This document shows, one piece after another, positions 2,356 through 42,639 of a DNA stretch of 42,639 bases. Numbering within the stretch: the stretch's first letter is position 1; every line of letters begins with the position of its first letter. Position numbers and translations under genes: made by a program. Origin of the DNA: a virus. The DNA is taken from positions 1-42,639 of IMG/VR virus record IMGVR_UViG_3300022746_000035; one strand, written 5' to 3'. Under the pieces are notes generated by a model, which was given only the letters and a program-made list of their open reading frames with translations, did no database searches and had not been told where the DNA came from.

Positions 2356-4010
2356 TGTCTGATGTTATTCGACAACGGAGCGTATCTCTCAAGCAATTCA
2401 GTGGTGGTCTAAACAACTACTGGGATCAATCATCCATCGCAGATAATGAGCTTTCAATGCTCATCAACATGGAGCTCACTACTACTGGCGCACTTACTTC
2501 TCGCCCACCAATCTGGGTTGAGAAGAACGGCAGCACCCCAATAGTTACCCCTGTAGCTGGACAATCTATGGATATCATCGGCACTTATACAACCGCTGCC
2601 GGAGATCGCTATCTAGTTGTAGTAACTACTGCAAAAACTTGGATTTACAACCTAGTAACCAAAGCTTTTACGCAGGTTGCTACCTTTCGCGCATCAGACT
2701 GCACGCAATACGACAACAAACTTGTTCTCTGCAGCACAATTCAACGCGGAGGCTACTGGGAAGCTGGTGTTTGGACTGCTTCAACTACTATGCCCTTCCT
2801 TGGTGGCATCGAGTTGTTCCAAAACCGCTTGTTTGGCTATGGCGTTCAGGGAACTGGCACAGCAAATACGCTTTACTGGTCTGACATCACTACTTTTGGT
2901 CCGTCTGGTCAGCTAACTTCCATCTGGAGTTGGACTGATGGCACTGGAAACTATTTCTATGTAGAAATTGGCACTGGTGACGGTCAATGGATCACCGCAA
3001 TGGAGCAGGGTTACAACGATGTTGTCTTGTTCCGCAACAAATCTACCTACCGATACTCCTATGGCGATGACCCTGCGTTTGGAACGATGCAGGCAATGCA
3101 GCAAGACATCGGAGCTGAGAGTAAACGCTCAGTAGTGAAGTTTGAAAACGCCCACTTTGTTTTCACTGGTGGCATTCTCTACAAGTATCAGAACTGGCTT
3201 TACTATCCATTGAATGCTCAGCGCGTGAAGATGGAGACCTACGGCTCATTCACTAGCCGATTCCAGCATGCAGTAAGCATTGTTGGGCGTAGATGCTTTG
3301 TTTGGCACAATGGTGCTACCTACTCTTATAACCTAGACACTGAAACTTGGTCAGAGTGGGAGACAACTACTAACGCTGCCTACTTTGTTGAAGCTCCACG
3401 CAAGTCTGAGGAGACTGAGGAGACTCGCTACTACGGTATCTCCGGCAACGCAGCTGTTGTGCCGGGCGCATCGGACTTCGCTTTGTGGCGCATCGAGGAT
3501 AAAGCAGTAAGCACTAATGGTTCTGAGAGCTTCAAGTGCACTATTCAAAGCAAGATCTATGACTTTGACAGCCCAGTCGAATGGAAAAGGTTGTTCTTCT
3601 GGGGCGCAGATGTTCAATCTGCTCTACCAATCAAGGCAATTGTTTACCCAGTATCGCTGCCAGCTACTCAGCCAGTTGTAACTTGGGATGAAATTTCCAA
3701 AGATTACTCACTTGAAACAAACTTCTACACTTGGGATCAGCTTTCAAAAGATAGCCCAGTAGATCCAGTTTTTGGAACTTGGGATTTCTTGAAAGCTCCA
3801 TCAGGCGGTATTGGAACTGTTGTAGAACTAGGCACAACCACCTATCCTTTGCGAACTGAAGTGAAGCTAAACCAAGGGCTACGCTTCCGCCGCATCTACT
3901 TTGAGCTATACTTGGACTGTGACGGAACGGCTGCCACATCACCAGTTCAGCTCTTTAGCATCATCCCAATGATCAGTGCTAAAGCCAAGGTTTCCAAGGG
4001 AGCAAACTAA
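2355..4010 (+). CDS. Tail nozzle / hub protein (P22 gp10-like), beta-propeller-like
   Basis: A 551-residue, aromatic-rich, nearly all-beta protein. The N-terminus has the usual nozzle layout: a GGLNNYWD segment (residues 17-24), then NELSMLINME and a G-x-L-x-x-R turn near residue 50. Repeated beta blades follow. In P22 and T7 relatives this protein forms the DNA exit channel below the adaptor and carries fibres. Its place between adaptor and ejection genes agrees. It overlaps both neighbours by one base (TAATG), suggesting coupled translation. There is no tape-measure gene nearby, which supports a short-tailed virion. Confidence 0.82.
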   Translation: MSDVIRQRSVSLKQFSGGLNNYWDQSSIADNELSMLINMELTTTGALTSRPPIWVEKNGSTPIVTPVAGQSMDIIGTYTTAAGDRYLVVVTTAKTWIYNLVTKAFTQVATFRASDCTQYDNKLVLCSTIQRGGYWEAGVWTASTTMPFLGGIELFQNRLFGYGVQGTGTANTLYWSDITTFGPSGQLTSIWSWTDGTGNYFYVEIGTGDGQWITAMEQGYNDVVLFRNKSTYRYSYGDDPAFGTMQAMQQDIGAESKRSVVKFENAHFVFTGGILYKYQNWLYYPLNAQRVKMETYGSFTSRFQHAVSIVGRRCFVWHNGATYSYNLDTETWSEWETTTNAAYFVEAPRKSEETEETRYYGISGNAAVVPGASDFALWRIEDKAVSTNGSESFKCTIQSKIYDFDSPVEWKRLFFWGADVQSALPIKAIVYPVSLPATQPVVTWDEISKDYSLETNFYTWDQLSKDSPVDPVFGTWDFLKAPSGGIGTVVELGTTTYPLRTEVKLNQGLRFRRIYFELYLDCDGTAATSPVQLFSIIPMISAKAKVSKGAN

Positions 4011-4243
4011 TGGCAGTTCAGAGAAGCTCTGCGCTCAAGACCATTTCGTTCAATCCCTATGCTGCTGGTTCAAAGATTTATTCTCAGGTTTCTTCAGCGC
4101 CTACTGTTGGTCCAGTAGACAAAGCAGGATATGCAGAGCGAGACCGAGCTATCAAGGCACGCAAGAATGCTGTCTTGGCAAAGATGAAAGCAATGAGTGT
4201 TGGAGCCTACGCCAATCCAGCCGCGATTAGGGGCGTGAACTAA
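4010..4243 (+). CDS. Small virion-region protein, unknown (77 aa)
   Basis: A 77-residue basic protein with a disordered-looking N-terminal half and a Lys/Arg-rich predicted helix at residues 42-65 (YAERDRAIKARKNAV). It is joined by TAATG to the nozzle gene upstream and to the next gene downstream, so it is almost certainly translated. Size and place suggest a small ejected or head-interior protein, but nothing in the sequence proves this. Confidence 0.7.
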   Translation: MAVQRSSALKTISFNPYAAGSKIYSQVSSAPTVGPVDKAGYAERDRAIKARKNAVLAKMKAMSVGAYANPAAIRGVN

Positions 4244-4887
4244 TGGCTATTATGAATACTGCGATGGCGGACCGTATTGCTACAGGTAAAATGGCTGTTC
4301 CAACTTGGGCTACTCAAACCCCAACTAGCACTACTACTGCAGTAGATACAACTAGTGGAAACCTAGTAGTTCCAAATACTCCAGCAGCAGCCCCTAGTGT
4401 TGCTGCTCCATCTGCTGCTCCAGCTACGCCTACAACTACTTCTCCAGCAAACTCTGCTGTTTACAACCTAGAAAACGACCCTGTTTATCAGTCGGCTATG
4501 TTGCAGGGTCAGAGCGCATTCAATGTTGGTCGCGCGAATGCTCTGGCTAACATGCAGAACGAGACTACTGGACTCAATCGCCAGAACACAAACATTGAGC
4601 AGGGTGCTGAGCAGTCGCGCCGTCAGCTTGCTGGAAACTTTGCAGCTCGCGGAATGCAGCGTGGAGCTTATGGCGCTTACTACCGCGCACAGGATGCAGC
4701 TAATGCTCAGCAGATCGCTCAGCAAACTGACATCAAAGACCAGATTGCTACTTTGAATCAAAACTTCCTTAGCAACTATGGTGCTATTGGAACAGACTGG
4801 ACCGGAACTACTATCGGTCAGCAATACAGAAACCAAGCTCTGCAGCAGGCACTTGCTGCTAAGCTCGCAACCTACGGAGTGGCATAA
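4243..4887 (+). CDS. Putative ejection (internal virion) protein, small
   Basis: 214 residues. Residues 20-70 are Pro/Ala/Thr/Ser-rich and probably disordered. Residues 80-214 are Gln/Asn/Ala-rich and helical, with ARGMQRGAYGAYYRAQDAAN near residues 137-156, a style common in small podoviral ejection proteins (phrases such as 'aaRG.....a......' recur in that class). It sits between the nozzle gene and two further Ala/Gln-rich genes and is joined to both neighbours by TAATG overlaps. The role is inferred from composition and position only. Confidence 0.68.
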   Translation: MAIMNTAMADRIATGKMAVPTWATQTPTSTTTAVDTTSGNLVVPNTPAAAPSVAAPSAAPATPTTTSPANSAVYNLENDPVYQSAMLQGQSAFNVGRANALANMQNETTGLNRQNTNIEQGAEQSRRQLAGNFAARGMQRGAYGAYYRAQDAANAQQIAQQTDIKDQIATLNQNFLSNYGAIGTDWTGTTIGQQYRNQALQQALAAKLATYGVA

Positions 4888-6143
4888 TGGCAGGAATTAC
4901 AGCAACCCCAGAATGGATCGCAGCAGCAGTTGGTAAAGCCGCTAACGGTTCAAAGCTTTCAACATCTTATTCAGCTAATGCCATCAACAAGTATCTTGCT
5001 ACTGGCAGCACTGCAGGTCTAAGCAAAACTCAGGCTGCTCAGGTTCAGAAGGCTATCAAAGCTATTGGCGCTCCAACTGCTGCGACTACTGATACTAGCG
5101 GTGGCAGTGGCGGAGATTTTGGCACAGTAACCGATACTCCAGCAGTAGATCCGATTCAAGCCGCCTACAACCCAGTTCTTGATTTTCTAAAGTCGCAGGC
5201 TACTGCAGCTCAAGACCGCTTCGGTCAGAACAAAGCTGATATCACTAACCTGTTTGGAACTTTGTCCACTGTGCGTGCAGCAGACATTCCAAAGATTCAG
5301 CAGCAGTATGCGACTTCGATTCAGCAGCAGCAGGATGCTGTAGCTCAGCGCATGGCTTTGCAGAATGTTCAGACTCAGCAAGGTGCTCAGGGCGCTGCTA
5401 CAGCCGGAGCTGAACTTGGCGGAGCAGATATGCCTGCCCCAACTAACTCGCTCTCTGCTCAGGCAGGAACAGCAGCGAACACTGATGCAAACGCATACCA
5501 GACCACTTGGAATGCACTTCAGCAGGTTATGTCTGCTCAAGACCAGCAAAATGTGCGAAATGCACAGTATGGCTATGATGCTCAGCAGAGCTCTGCCCTG
5601 CTTCAGCTTCAGCGTCAGCTTGAAGACCGACTGTCTCAGATCAATGGCGACATTGCTGGAACCCAGTCTCAGGTTGCTCAGGCTCAGCTTGGAGCTCAGG
5701 CATCTGCTGCTGAGATGACTCAAGAGCAGTTGCTTGCTAAGGCTAAGGCGCAGAATGCGCTTGATGTTGCTGGAGTGGGTGCTGGAGCACGAGTTACTGC
5801 TGCAAAGATTGCCGCTAAAGCCCGCGTAACTGCATCAAAGAGCAAGGGCAATAAGACTCCAAAGCCAAAGACATACACATCTAACTACACTGGTTGGTCT
5901 CAAAAAATTCTTGATGCTGGCGGAACTACTGCAAATGTTCAATCTATTCAAAACATGGTTCAAAAATCTTATGACGCAGTTTATGCAAAACTGAACCCTC
6001 CAGTAGCTCCGGGAGCAAAGGTAACTATAAAGAAACCAAGCAATGCTCAAATCGCTGCTCAGTGGAATAAGGTTTATGGCGCTAAGAGCTCCAAGTTTAC
6101 TCAGCCAGTAATGGATTACATCAACAACGGCTACTATAAGTAG
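4887..6143 (+). CDS. Putative ejection (internal virion) protein, Ala/Gln-rich
   Basis: 418 residues, dominated by Ala, Gln, Thr and Ser with long predicted helices or coiled coil at about residues 95-160 and 210-300. A basic Lys/Ala/Thr linker follows at about 300-325 and a C-terminal domain rich in aromatic and basic residues ends the protein. It lacks enzymatic motifs. The order small ejection protein, medium ejection protein, giant ejection protein after a nozzle gene matches podoviral late operons. It overlaps the previous gene by one base. A 41-base gap to the next gene carries a possible weak -10 (TATAGC). Confidence 0.68.
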   Translation: MAGITATPEWIAAAVGKAANGSKLSTSYSANAINKYLATGSTAGLSKTQAAQVQKAIKAIGAPTAATTDTSGGSGGDFGTVTDTPAVDPIQAAYNPVLDFLKSQATAAQDRFGQNKADITNLFGTLSTVRAADIPKIQQQYATSIQQQQDAVAQRMALQNVQTQQGAQGAATAGAELGGADMPAPTNSLSAQAGTAANTDANAYQTTWNALQQVMSAQDQQNVRNAQYGYDAQQSSALLQLQRQLEDRLSQINGDIAGTQSQVAQAQLGAQASAAEMTQEQLLAKAKAQNALDVAGVGAGARVTAAKIAAKARVTASKSKGNKTPKPKTYTSNYTGWSQKILDAGGTTANVQSIQNMVQKSYDAVYAKLNPPVAPGAKVTIKKPSNAQIAAQWNKVYGAKSSKFTQPVMDYINNGYYK

Positions 6144-9100: not shown

Positions 9101-12100
9101 GTAAAGACCCTGAAGATGAAGGGTGAGACTCAAAAGGTTTGGTCAAAGGCTTTTGCTAAGACCGCTGAGCAGCGCGCTGAAGCCCTTATCAACGAGATCA
9201 ACAAGCCAGCAGTCCTTGACCAGCTAGAGCAGATTCACAATACGCGAGCTCTTGCTGACATTGAAAGCAACATGGAGATCGCACACACTATGAACAGCAA
9301 TGTCATGGATAATCTTGCTGAAGGTCTGCGTATCCTGCGCGACAAGAACATTGATAATAATGCTGACCGCCTAACTCTGCTTCGCGAATCATTTGCAAAG
9401 CTAGCCTATGCAAGCGATGTTTTGAAGCAGTCACGCGGCGATGTAGCAGAATCAATGCTCAAAGCTCTAAGCATGATTTACCTGCAGGGCGGAAAGATTC
9501 GCGACATCACTGCAAAAGGTGAGAAATACATCACTGGTAGCGATCTAGTTACCAAAGAAGAATTCGTCAAGATTCGTGACCTTATGAATACTATGTTCCG
9601 CCACGAAAACCCTGAAGCAGCAGCCCCAATGGGTCGCGAAGGTTTGCCATTCCCTAAGCCAGAAGCAAAGGCTGCAGCTCAAAACAAGCTAACTGAAACA
9701 ATGCTTGCCTACGAGAAGCACTTCGCTGACCGCTTGACTTTGACCACTAAGGCTGAAGTAAAGACTTGGCTTACAAAGCAGCGTAGCCTGCAGAAGAAGC
9801 TAGATGCAGCGCGTGAGACTGCTTGGAATAACTGGATTGATACCAAGCACTTTGATGTTGCCACTCAGACTTGGGTAGACAGCTCACAGTTTGACCATGC
9901 AGCATCTACTGCAGCAGCTCAGAATATGGACAGAATCATCCTTCAAGATGGAACTGCAAACCTTGCCGGAGAAGTTGTAGACACAGTTGCTAAGCGCCCT
10001 AGAAAGACCACTAAGGCTCAGCAGAAGCAGATCTGGGAGCAAGATGAGCCAGTCCGTCAGGCACGCGGAAAGAAGCTTGCTGATGGTGCTGTGCAGGATG
10101 CCGCTAAGCACACTCTAGACTCAGCTGCAGACATTGCTAAAGCTGCTGAAGGTGACATCAATGTTGCCCAGCTACGCACGATTCAAGAGTTCTATGACAA
10201 GCCGCTAAACGACTCGGTTATTCGCGTTTACACAACCTATGACCGAAGCAGAAAAGCTACTAATCTTCCGGGCACAATAAACTCTGGAAGGCTATCTCAG
10301 CTAGCAAACCGCCTAGATGCAAACGCTGGAAAAGCTGATGTTGCCCCATACATGGCAATGGCTGAATCAAACAAGCAGATGATGAACTCTAGCTTGTCGC
10401 ATGCCCTTGACTTGATGAAGAAGAAATACAAGGGAGCCTTAGAAGGCGATGGCTTTATGACCGCATTTGGTCACTGGGCTGCCCAGACAATGCCGGATCA
10501 AGCTGCTGACCCAATCATGCACGACTTGGTTAGCAACCTAAACAACGCCCTACAGCCAGTACGCCAAGCAATGACCGAAGAAGGCTTCAGTACTCAGGCT
10601 TTGCAAAATGCATTCAACCACTACGGGCTTGGCGACAAACTTGGCTTTGCAGATGTCAAGGGCATGACCCAAGACCAGTTAAAGAAGTATTTTGAGACTC
10701 TACCATTTGCACCAAAGCCAGCTTGGGTTGGCGACCTAACTACCATTGAAGGCGCTGACTGGGCTAACCGAACTCAAGCATTCATTGACTCTGGTTCAGA
10801 CCCATTCATTATTCTGTCTCGTTTTGGTATGGCAGTTCAGCATGCCAAAACCGAAAAGGCAATGGCAGATTCTTTGGTTGCAAACTTTGGTCATGAATCA
10901 TTTGGGCTCACTGCAAAGCAGGCTGTTGAGCGTGGTTGGGTGCAGGTCAAGGCAGTAAACGAAACTAAGGGAATCAACCTAACTGCTCACTTCCCAACAG
11001 GTGACAATGCAGCTTACTTCCACCCAGATATTGCTCCACAGATCGGTGCGCTAAACCGAGAATGGAACTCTATCGCTAGCGGTTCCCCTCAGTGGCTAAA
11101 GCCTGTAATGGGTCTTATGAGCTTGGTAAAGGCACAGCAAACCATCTTTACTCCACGCCACCATGTCATCAACATTGTTGGTGACAACGGTATCGCTATT
11201 GTTTATGGAACTCGCAATGTTGAGCACTGGGTAGCCGGAGCAAAAGTTGCCAAAAACATTGCTAACGAGATCCTCAAGACTGAGTATCTAGGCAACAAAC
11301 TTGTAGAAGAAATTGCTATGGTTGCCAAAAACTATGACAAGTCAAGCAAGTTCTTAAACAGCGCCGAAGACATGAACAAGGGCTTCATGAGCTTCAACAT
11401 TGGTGGCAAAATCCAACACATCAGCATTGAGGACCTAACTCAAGAATTCAAGGCTCGCGGAATCACTATCAGCAACATTTTCAACGATGAAATTGCTGGA
11501 CTAACTGAATCTGTTCTATCTGATGCCTCCAATGCCACTGGCGCAAAGAAGACACTATTCCAAAGCATTAACCATGCTATCTTCCAAGCTAACCGACTAG
11601 CTAAGCCCGCTGGTGACTTGAGCGTGTTCTACGGCAATGTTCCTCGCGCAGCTCATGCTATCTCTGTCGGTGCTAAGCGTTCATGGCGCAGCACTGATGA
11701 AATGTTTGCGGCTATGGCTAAAGAGATTCATCTTACCCACCCAACCATTCAGTCGCTAGCCTCTGGCGAACGCAAGGTAATGCGCCCACTATTCACCTAC
11801 TACACATGGCTTCGCGTTGCTCACTCAGCAATGATTGACATGGCTTTGAATCATGGGCGCTGGATGACCGTTTACCCACAGCTTCAGTATGAGACCGCTA
11901 AGCAGAACCAGATGGGCAACATTAGCGCCGCAGTGCCTTGGAGTAAGCAGCAAAAAGAAATGCTGCCAGACTACCTAACTAAGAGCGCTTACGGGCCATC
12001 ATTCAACCCTGCTGACCCAACCCTAGTTCGCCCACCAATCCTGCCTCTAGATGTCATGGAGAACTGGAACTTTACTTGGGATCCAACTAAGAGTTTTGAA

Positions 12101-17757: not shown

Positions 17758-17786
17758 TCCTGAGCACGATGTAAAACTGCTCTCCC
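17758..17786 (+). promoter_or_regulatory. Conserved 3' stem-loop, copy 2 of 2
   Basis: The second copy of the element at 17198-17226. GAGCA (17762-17766) pairs with TGCTC (17778-17782) across the same 11-nt loop length. Changes fall mainly in the loop, while the stem and the AAAACTGCTC segment are kept. It lies 16 bases after the stop of the 161-residue gene and just before a strong hairpin. Confidence 0.5.
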
Positions 17787-17789
17787 CCA

Positions 17790-17821
17790 GATGCCCGGCA
17801 CTCCCCCCAGTGCCGGGCATC
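17790..17821 (+). terminator. Strong GC-rich hairpin, probable terminator
   Basis: A perfect 13-bp stem, GATGCCCGGCACT (17790-17802) with AGTGCCGGGCATC (17809-17821), closes a six-C loop and is followed by ACCCTTTT. A second small hairpin, CCCGGC/GCCGGG, follows at about 17831-17845, flanked by CTTTT and AAAAAG, so it could stop transcription on the minus strand. Confidence 0.75.
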
Positions 17822-17883
17822 ACCCTTTTGCCCGGCAGAGCCGGGAGAAAAAGGAGGCTGCGCCACTTTTTCTTTTTTATATA

Positions 17884-18709: not shown

Positions 18710-19312
18710 ATGACTAAATTCACCATCTCAGCACACGACTGCCGTTCAATTGCAAGCCTTATCTCTTGCACCGGTAAAGACTTTGAACGCATGGCAAACA
18801 TCCATGTTCGCATCGAAGATGGCAAAGTGACCGCAACCGCAACAGACCGCTACAAAATCGCCACTTGGGTAACTGAAAATCTTGACACTGATGAAACTGG
18901 CGTAATCGAATTCGCGATTACCCCTGCGATGGCTAAGTGGCTAACTGCTATCAAGTTGCCAAAGGGTTATCGGGGAACTGGCGTTGAATTCGATCTGAAT
19001 GAGCGTGAACTGCTAGCCACTTACCAAGGGCAGTCTATGATCAACATCTTTAGCCTTGATTCTGAACTGTTTGCCAAGGTTGCAACCTACATCTCAGCAG
19101 GTGAAGCGCCAGAGCAACCTGCCAAAGCTTTTGCGATGGCTACTAGGCATCTTGTAGACCTAAGCAAAATCATCGATAGTAACGGCAAGAAACTAGAGAC
19201 CCTTGTCTTCACTGAGACTCTACGCACTAATGACCGACCTGCACCATTCATCATCACTGCCCAAGGTTGCCTTGAATTCAAGGCACTACTGCAACCAAAC
19301 ATCATCCGATAA
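18710..19312 (+). CDS. Small beta sliding clamp-like protein (DnaN-like)
   Basis: 200 residues. Residues 3-52 read like the first repeat of a bacterial beta clamp: FTISAHDC at the start, HVRIEDGKVTATATDRYKIA near 27-46 (compare 'v.i.....l...ATD..rla' in DnaN). A beta-rich middle part follows, and the C-terminus (PAPFIITAQG then ALLQPNII) resembles the clamp end near the polymerase-binding pocket. It is about half the length of host DnaN (near 370), so a different oligomer number or a partial ring is implied. The phage has no DNA polymerase, so this protein probably recruits the host replicase or blocks the host clamp. Confidence 0.68.
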   Translation: MTKFTISAHDCRSIASLISCTGKDFERMANIHVRIEDGKVTATATDRYKIATWVTENLDTDETGVIEFAITPAMAKWLTAIKLPKGYRGTGVEFDLNERELLATYQGQSMINIFSLDSELFAKVATYISAGEAPEQPAKAFAMATRHLVDLSKIIDSNGKKLETLVFTETLRTNDRPAPFIITAQGCLEFKALLQPNIIR

Positions 19313-19323
19313 GGAGACCGATC

Positions 19324-19815
19324 ATGCGCTGGAATAACTACGAACTGAACATTTACGCATTCAACGGAACTGTAAACATTACTGCCTATCCGCTTACATG
19401 GACTGGCAACATTGATGTTCATGGCTTCCCGATCTACCTAGTAACCAACTACTCACCTAATCAACAACTTCAGTTGAATCTCTACATGAGTAGACCTGAA
19501 CACACTGAAGCCATCCGCTATGCACTTGATTCCGAGTATTGGGATAACCCTGAACACTTGTTCACTGATAAGCAGATCCTTGAAGACTTTGCTAATGGCG
19601 CTCATGACGCAATGAAGCTTGTTGTCGGCTATTGGGATGAATCGGATGAGTGGCAGGATGCTAGCACTTGGAACAGACCGCCTGAACCGATTCTGGCATG
19701 GCTCAAGTCTTTGCCGCTTTACCATGTTGCGCTTGACGCAGACCTTGAAGCAAGTCTGATCGCTGAGGGAATGCTGAACGATGACGCAACTGCAGATCTT
19801 TGGGCTAGCGCATGA
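19324..19815 (+). CDS. Unknown protein (163 aa), aromatic and acidic
   Basis: 163 residues, rich in Asp, Glu, Trp and Tyr, with a beta-rich first half and a helical second half (LDADLEASLIAEGML near the end). The acid-rich composition recalls DNA-mimic or ArdA-like antirestriction proteins, but I see no family signature. AAGGAG precedes the ATG, 11 bases after the clamp-like gene. It overlaps the next mini-gene (ATGA). Confidence 0.68.
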   Translation: MRWNNYELNIYAFNGTVNITAYPLTWTGNIDVHGFPIYLVTNYSPNQQLQLNLYMSRPEHTEAIRYALDSEYWDNPEHLFTDKQILEDFANGAHDAMKLVVGYWDESDEWQDASTWNRPPEPILAWLKSLPLYHVALDADLEASLIAEGMLNDDATADLWASA

Positions 19816-19955: not shown

Positions 19956-19998
19956 ACACTTTGTCTAAACGCATTTGCAGGTCGCTAACCCTATAGAG

Positions 19999-20048
19999 CA
20001 AGTTAGAGTTAGTAATCCTATAGCTCTAAGAATACTAACTCTAACTTG
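19999..20048. repeat. Perfect 16-bp inverted repeat with 18-bp spacer
   Basis: CAAGTTAGAGTTAGTA (19999-20014) is the exact reverse complement of TACTAACTCTAACTTG (20033-20048). The spacer contains CCTATAGCTCTA, related to words elsewhere in the region. It has no T-tract, so a protein-binding or cruciform role is more likely than termination. Confidence 0.85.
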
Positions 20049-20173
20049 ATCCCTATATAGAGCAGTTAGAAGAAAATTTTTATTCAAAAAACCTTTAAAG
20101 AAAAATAACAAAATACTTTTATTCGCCTAAAAGTATGCTACTGTTTCAACCACTACAACAAAAAACATCGTAT

Positions 20174-20222
20174 TGCTCTAGTTTTACTAACTTTAGAATA
20201 GAGTCTTAGTAAGATTAGAGCA
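20174..20222. repeat. Imperfect 17-bp inverted repeat before the first HTH gene
   Basis: TGCTCTAGTTTTACTAA (20174-20190) pairs with TTAGTAAGATTAGAGCA (20206-20222) at 15 of 17 positions. It ends 12 bases before the ATG at 20235 and covers the expected promoter, so it may be the operator of the downstream HTH genes. Confidence 0.75.
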
Positions 20223-41894: not shown

Positions 41895-42639
41895 ATGGCT
41901 GGTCAGGGAATTCTGACTTTCGCCTCGGATGCTCTAAAGCTTGTCTATGGTGACATTCACGAGCAGCTCCGAGACAAAACCCCAGCACTAGACTTTATCG
42001 AGTCCAGTGCCGCACACCTTACCCAGAACGGCAAGCAGGCTGTCTTTGACACCCACATTGGTCGTAATCAGGGTATTGGTGCTCGTGACGTTCGCGAGAC
42101 CCTTCCATCTGCAGGCGCTCAGAAGTATAAGCAGGCAAGCCTATACCTCAAGAACCTTTATGGTGCTATCGAGGTTGATGGTCAGCTGTTTGAGCAGGCT
42201 GCAGACAACTACAACGCATTCATCAATGTTGTAGACAACGAAATCAAGGGTCTGAAGAAGGACCTTGCTCGTGACTTCAACCGCCAGATCTACGGAGATG
42301 GCACTGGAACTATTTCGACTGTTGTTGCTGGAACCCTTACCGGAACCACCATCACCTTCGATCAGGTAACTTGGGCAGATGTAGACATGACTGTCTCCTT
42401 CATCCGCGCTGGTTCCGTAGTTGGTTCGCAGGTTACTATCAGCTCGATCAACGAGACTGCTAAGACCATCACTTTCTCTGCATCGGTAACTGTGCAGGTT
42501 GGCGATATTCTGGTTCGTTCCTCGAACGGCACGACTTCCTACAACAAGGAAATCACTGGTCTTGGAAAGATCGTTGCTGCTAGCGGTTCGCTACATGGCA
42601 TTGACCCTGCAAGCACTCCAGTATGGTCTTCCTATGTAA
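41895..42639 (+). CDS. Major capsid protein, allele 2 (3' truncated by window edge)
   Basis: The same gene as 2-1189, here with its true start (AGGAGAGTGAAAC before ATG) and cut after 248 codons. Bases 41906-42031 equal 1-126, and 42513-42639 equal 608-734. Between them about 50 of 481 bases differ, nearly all synonymous. The six amino-acid changes are Glu-to-Gln, Arg-to-Val, Ala-to-Asn, Ala-to-Ser, Val-to-Ser and Leu-to-Gln (copy 1 to copy 2). It is probably a second allele in the sampled population rather than a second gene, but a tandem duplication cannot be excluded. Confidence 0.9.
   Translation, partial: MAGQGILTFASDALKLVYGDIHEQLRDKTPALDFIESSAAHLTQNGKQAVFDTHIGRNQGIGARDVRETLPSAGAQKYKQASLYLKNLYGAIEVDGQLFEQAADNYNAFINVVDNEIKGLKKDLARDFNRQIYGDGTGTISTVVAGTLTGTTITFDQVTWADVDMTVSFIRAGSVVGSQVTISSINETAKTITFSASVTVQVGDILVRSSNGTTSYNKEITGLGKIVAASGSLHGIDPASTPVWSSYV

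Follow-up and report, generated by a model that had tools for sequence, protein, structure and literature searches.

The bacterial clamp DnaN is a dimer ring, each subunit of which has three domains and about 370 aa. The sliding clamps T4 gp45 and PCNA are instead trimers with two full domains per subunit, so that a clamp ring can be made up in other ways. The dimer contacts of DnaN are I78, R103 and F106 in domain I and I272, L273, E298 and E304 in the first half of domain III, and its partner pocket has domain II on one side and the second half of domain III on the other (PMC11139829). In cluster K mycobacteriophages, the clamp gene Waterfoul gp48 occurs in a phage with a primase/polymerase-helicase replication set (PMC9339283); its product is full length (376 aa), so an ordinary dimer is possible. 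Shorter proteins are also annotated in phages: Bcep781 gp15 is named 'DNA Pol III b subunit fragment', and proteins of Kithara, Gingerbug, Lesiram, Skate and EP23 are named clamps or beta subunits. In the open literature searched, we found no functional study of short phage clamps.

We analysed a virus record of 42,639 bp (the window, meaning this whole stretch of DNA), which encodes a 200-aa clamp-like protein, P0001, and, as in Waterfoul, a primase-helicase; unlike Waterfoul gp48, P0001 is not full length. It shares with DnaN of E. coli and M. tuberculosis the fold, the domain II motif, the C-terminal strand and the position of the pocket, but it has no domain I and only the second half of domain III. 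With one and a half domains, it also differs from T4 gp45 and PCNA. An earlier note on this DNA had implied that such a protein is unique, a view that the broad family already annotated in phages does not support. Short phage clamps are known as annotations, to which P0001 adds a member; what this analysis adds is their common domain layout.

Clamp identity of P0001

The mini-clamp gene was intact (Table 1), with a ribosome-binding-like AAGGA about 9 nt 5' of its ATG. Full-length orthologues of the same size were found in two IMG/VR contigs, L002 and L003, with 76% and 87% identity, respectively. The earlier note had described a 200-residue product of the clamp superfamily, about half as long as a DnaN subunit, with DnaN-style wording at both ends. 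The intact ORF and its orthologues confirmed the product, the wording was found as ATDRYKIA (residues 44–51) and ALLQPNIIR (residues 192–200), and the superfamily assignment agreed with the family profile and the predicted fold.

Table 1. Positions in the window of the mini-clamp gene, its parts and associated genes
Feature	Position	Strand	Basis
Mini-clamp gene (P0001)	18710..19312	+	Intact ORF, 200 codons, ATG at 18710, stop at 19310-19312
DnaN domain II-like part, residues 1-129 (beta-alpha-beta4, alpha, beta3)	18710..19096	+	Profile alignment to domain II; predicted secondary structure; Pfam match of orthologue L003
TDRYKI, residues 45-50	18842..18859	+	Position of E. coli pocket residues T172-L177, subsite I (PMC11139829)
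FAKVATYIS, residues 121-129	19070..19096	+	Position of E. coli F241-P249 (pocket residues P242, R246, V247)
Second half of DnaN domain III, residues 138-200 (beta-alpha-beta3)	19121..19309	+	Corresponds in place to the tail found in proteobacterial relatives
C-terminal LLQPNIIR, corresponding to VVMPMRL in E. coli	19286..19309	+	QP invariant in 17/17 members
ArdA-like anti-restriction protein, 124 aa	18302..18676	+	phrog_36653 anti-restriction, 4.1e-07; directly upstream of mini-clamp
163-aa downstream neighbour	19324..19815	+	Orthologues in L002 and L003
Primase/D5-type helicase, 832 aa	27883..30381	+	phrog_2478 DNA polymerase/primase, 3.3e-191; D5_N, 1.7e-21

Searched alone, P0001 gave weak matches to Pfam DNA_pol3_beta_2 (E=0.085) and NCBIfam DnaN (0.13), and a PDB search with the single sequence returned nothing relevant; orthologue L003 matched DNA_pol3_beta_2 with E=0.0072. 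Because the single-sequence matches were weak, relatives were gathered stepwise. A weak tblastn match led to gp74 of Curtobacterium phage Kithara, annotated as a sliding clamp, and from it we added Kithara gp88, Pseudanabaena phage Pan2_73, proteins of the Microbacterium phages Gingerbug, Lesiram and DelaGarza, and the IMG/VR loci L015–L022. A leave-out family HMM, built without P0001 and its two orthologues, found P0001 at E=2.9e-10 over nearly its full length; the adjacent-ranked unrelated ORFs in the same search scored only about E=3. With the 17-member family profile, solved beta clamps, those of B. subtilis and mycobacteria among them, gave matches of 2.8e-5 to 3e-4 that were aligned on domain II. 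A phage search with E. coli beta brought out short proteobacterial clamp-like proteins covering part of DnaN, several of them with about 30% identity to E. coli beta in domain II.

The structure of P0001 was predicted with AlphaFold2 from an 11-sequence alignment (pLDDT 77.4, pTM 0.80), which replaced an unusable prediction from three close sequences (pLDDT 40). In a Foldseek search of PDB, the best match of the predicted fold was the P. aeruginosa clamp 4tr8_A (8.7e-07, prob 1.00), and the best 50 were all bacterial beta clamps (E of about 1e-6) except for two lower-ranked PCNA entries. Foldseek also matched short viral clamps of similar size, such as a 202-aa protein of an uncultured phage (TM-scores 0.71/0.70). 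A predicted fold unrelated to the clamp superfamily, by which the earlier note would have been refuted, was not obtained; the predicted fold was that of a clamp. The weak or empty single-sequence searches would suit a chance or convergent resemblance in a protein unrelated to clamps, but we consider that explanation hardly tenable, as it is contradicted by the profile matches to PDB clamps, by the predominance of beta clamps in the Foldseek results and by the roughly 30% identity between E. coli beta and the proteobacterial relatives. The clamp identity of P0001 is secure.

The subunit consists of domain II and the second half of domain III

In the predicted structure, a full domain (residues 1–129) was followed by a beta-alpha-beta3 unit (residues 138–200) ending in LLQPNIIR. 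The short proteobacterial clamps had comparable sizes: Skate gp41 and pIS4-A gp46 178 aa each, EP23p08 170 aa, VLCpiS13c gp78 and Vibrio 1.089 gp51 192 aa each, Bcep781 gp15 193 aa and TC7 gp30 224 aa. When compared with domain III of E. coli, their tails fitted the second half (z 4–14 in six of the seven) much better than the first, and Pfam domain III (PF02768) was matched in relatives at positions 68–121 and 71–121 of 121 only. The C-terminal ends of several of them, including the Skate, VLCpiS13c, EP23 and pIS4-A proteins, read VVMPMRL, VIMPMRL or IVMPMRI, as compared with VVMPMRL in E. coli. The relatives' tails and Pfam positions, together with the order of elements in P0001, thus showed that the mini-clamp subunit is made up of domain II and the latter half of domain III, which amounts to about one and a half of the three DnaN domains. 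One global alignment had placed the tail on the first half of domain III; separate scoring and the PF02768 positions ruled this out.

Domain I (PF00712) had no match in any of 15 records, and a search of the window for a second clamp gene that could supply the missing part found none. P0001, with 200 aa, has the clamp fold of DnaN but not its three domains per subunit, and the segments bearing the seven dimer contact residues, through which domain I meets domain III, are absent. Since the domains that make the DnaN dimer are missing, a different oligomer or a ring-free role is needed, as the earlier note had argued. Identity and layout taken together, P0001 is almost certainly a mini-clamp derived from DnaN.

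Among the closest described proteins are Kithara gp74 and gp88, Gingerbug gp56, Lesiram gp58 and Pan2_73, whose annotations read DNA polymerase III beta or sliding clamp; they belong to the same family by the leave-out profile and have TDRY and LQP in common with P0001. P0001 differs from these actino-type clamps (220–264 aa; about 17–24% identity) in its length, its trimmed loops and its changed equivalents of P242, R246 and V247. In length it falls with six proteobacterial fragments, Bcep781 gp15, Skate gp41, EP23p08, VLCpiS13c gp78, pIS4-A gp46 and Vibrio 1.089 gp51 (170–193 aa), which have the same layout and are closer than P0001 to E. coli beta (TDGHR, MPMRL). The actino-type profile recovered these six of the seven proteobacterial short clamps.

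The partner-peptide pocket and possible modes of action

In DnaN, the partner pocket is flanked by those parts that the mini-clamps have retained, domain II and the latter half of domain III. The counterparts of the segment FAKVATYIS in the alignments were GNFPPVARLFP in the family and GRFPDYRRVLP in E. coli beta. In a less redundant set of 14 members, mean conservation was 0.70 at the 17 pocket-equivalent positions versus 0.45 overall, and none of 20,000 random sets was as high; as the motifs behind the pocket mapping also anchor the alignment, the test is in part circular and not fully independent. TDRY and the C-terminal QP were invariant in all 17 actino-type members, and the invariant pocket equivalents were T172, G174 (as R), H175 (as Y), M362 (as Q in 17/17) and P363. 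Other pocket residues were altered: in the P0001 subfamily, the equivalents of P242, R246 and V247 were A/T, T/S and Y (residues 122, 126 and 127; A, T and Y in P0001), and the subsite II residues N320 and Y323 were not retained.

TDRY resembles TDRF of mycobacterial clamps, most proteobacterial members have TDGHR, and a search with Bcep781 gp15 gave E. coli and other proteobacterial clamps as best matches. Judged from these sequences, short clamps thus tend to look like clamps from the lineage to which the host belongs, which may reflect separate origins or co-evolution.

The earlier note had linked the clamp to a phage without a polymerase of any family. No Pfam match to a family A, B or C polymerase was found in 11 actino-type records, including those of the window, Kithara, Pan2 and Gingerbug, although most of these records are not certified complete; that part of the statement holds for this record. 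The wording was too strong, however, because the family of the 832-aa primase-helicase is labelled 'DNA polymerase/primase', a label also carried by the mycobacteriophage RefSeq proteins that it matches; the Prim-Pol domain PF09250 had no match in it. The link itself was weakened by Bcep781 and EP23, whose mini-clamp relatives occur with the phage's own family A polymerase, so the absence of a polymerase does not define the mini-clamp family. A clamp-loader ATPase (delta'/DnaX-type, PF13177) had no match in the six records searched for it, with the same reservation about completeness. The search that the earlier note had recommended, for a QL[SD]LF-type peptide in the other phage proteins of the window, gave no canonical clamp-binding motif. 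A QLQLNL hexamer in the product of the downstream neighbour was rejected as such a motif; it was at chance level and was not conserved in L002 or L003.

We tentatively favour the reading that the mini-clamp forms no normal two-subunit ring and acts as a free pocket module with host clamp-binding proteins as its partners. The groove, with its conserved positions, would accommodate the peptide motifs of the host clamp-loader delta, the replicase DnaE and repair polymerases. The mini-clamp could then take the loader or replicase off the host chromosome, or it could keep host polymerase III at phage forks begun by the phage primase-helicase; the latter would suit this phage, in which no polymerase of family A, B or C was found. 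For a beta that is deficient in dimerisation, binding to delta is about 50-fold tighter than for the normal dimer (PMC11139829), so a ring-less clamp is plausible as a good loader trap. Overexpression of the full-length phage clamp Waterfoul gp48 and of the putative clamp Adephagia gp35 inhibits M. smegmatis (PMC9339283, PMC11373665). Counted for the free pocket module were the loss of both dimer surfaces, the conservation of the pocket-equivalent positions and the lack of matches to A, B or C polymerases in the actino-type records and to a clamp-loader ATPase in the six searched; counted against it were the altered pocket residues, the lack of a canonical clamp-binding motif and the relatives beside their own family A polymerase. 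The two DnaN channel-lining helices have retained a net positive charge in most members, which fits DNA contact rather than a pure decoy.

The main rival of the free pocket module is a true sliding clamp of new make-up, in which four subunits would close the ring by a new interface and serve the host replicase or the putative phage primase-polymerase. The arithmetic agrees with this: each subunit would bring 3 of 12 half-domains, its 200 residues making 1.5 domains, and 4 × 1.5 gives 6. In positive charge, channel helices 2 and 3 come 19th and 9th among 184 sequence windows, the pocket is retained in position, and mini-clamps occur together with complete replication sets, including those with family A polymerases (Bcep781, EP23). 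Yet both known interface halves are absent, no clamp loader was found in the six records searched, and in Bcep781 and EP23 the gene lies among head genes on the opposite strand, so that we regard a four-subunit clamp as possible but somewhat unlikely. The more specific form of a tetrameric DNA ring, possibly built by paired half-domains and with pockets on one or both faces, appears doubtful; if true, it would add another sliding-clamp build to the dimer of DnaN and the trimers of PCNA and T4 gp45. We also think it improbable that the clamp fragment has been repurposed, for DNA binding or as a regulator, and has no dealings with clamp partners. Drift in the pocket of the P0001 subfamily at residues 122, 126 and 127, the loss of N320 and Y323, the Q that replaces M362 throughout, and the location near head, DNA-binding-protein or ParB-like genes in several proteobacterial phages would all agree with such a change of use, but conservation is highest at the pocket-equivalent positions, and TDGHR and MPMRL are nearly as in E. 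coli beta in most proteobacterial members.

Short clamp-like genes occur in numerous phages, those of Salmonella, E. coli, Klebsiella, Burkholderia, Vibrio, Aeromonas, Microbacterium and Curtobacterium as well as the phage analysed here. Their common layout, with the pocket position kept and the dimer parts dropped, poses one question for all of them, namely ring or pocket trap. If mini-clamps trap the clamp loader or replicase, they would be a common and unnoticed phage means to steer or stop host replication.

Family labels and surroundings of the gene

The mini-clamp family (phrog_12598, phrog_3007 and relatives) comprises proteins of 170–264 residues in actinobacterial and proteobacterial phages, and P0001 belongs to it by its full-length profile match and the common layout; the lowest E for phrog_12598 in the three orthologues was 4e-06. 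No matches came from viral scans in which Kithara gp74 and gp88 served as queries, and no mini-clamp relative was found in the bacterial genome contigs searched. The labels in use for short clamps are 'sliding clamp', 'beta subunit fragment' and, wrongly, 'RusA resolvase'. A RusA-like resolvase label is carried by phrog_12598 and phrog_3007 and by the RefSeq entries NC_004333.2 gp15, NC_071157.1 gp78 and NC_042037.1 gp46. This label in PHROGs and RefSeq is apparently wrong because profile and fold show clamps. Identity with a RusA Holliday junction resolvase was ruled out by the predicted clamp fold and by the separate RusA, gp22, that Bcep781 encodes.

Gene positions in relatives varied. In Bcep781 (4070–4651) and EP23 (2977–3489), the mini-clamp gene is on the opposite strand within a cluster of head genes, which is odd for a replication gene, and in several proteobacterial phages its surroundings include head genes, a gene for a DNA-binding protein or ParB-like genes. 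Kithara encodes two very different mini-clamps, gp88 (4322–5035) and gp74 (10237–10950), which could form a mixed oligomer or have separate targets.

In the window, the mini-clamp gene lies between the ArdA-like gene and the gene for the 163-aa protein, which had no match in a Pfam search; L002 has kept both flanking genes, with the ArdA-like counterpart again 5' of the mini-clamp. The first 734 bp of the record recur at its end (1–734 versus 41906–42639) with 93% identity; as the ends overlap in this way, the record looks essentially complete. Within this repeat, the start of the major capsid gene exists in two slightly different versions, probably because a genome that is circular or permuted was closed across a mixed population, or because there are two alleles of the capsid gene. 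Three imperfect direct repeats of 18 nt with a TGCCCGGCA-like core were present at 17783–17837, where there is no obvious gene. About 0.65 kb downstream of the mini-clamp, an A+T-rich gap contains a 28-nt inverted repeat without spacer at 19996–20051 (86%) and a 17-nt inverted repeat at 20174–20222 (88%). The two have GCTCTA and TTAGTAA-like words in common, and on these features the gap is a candidate operator or origin.
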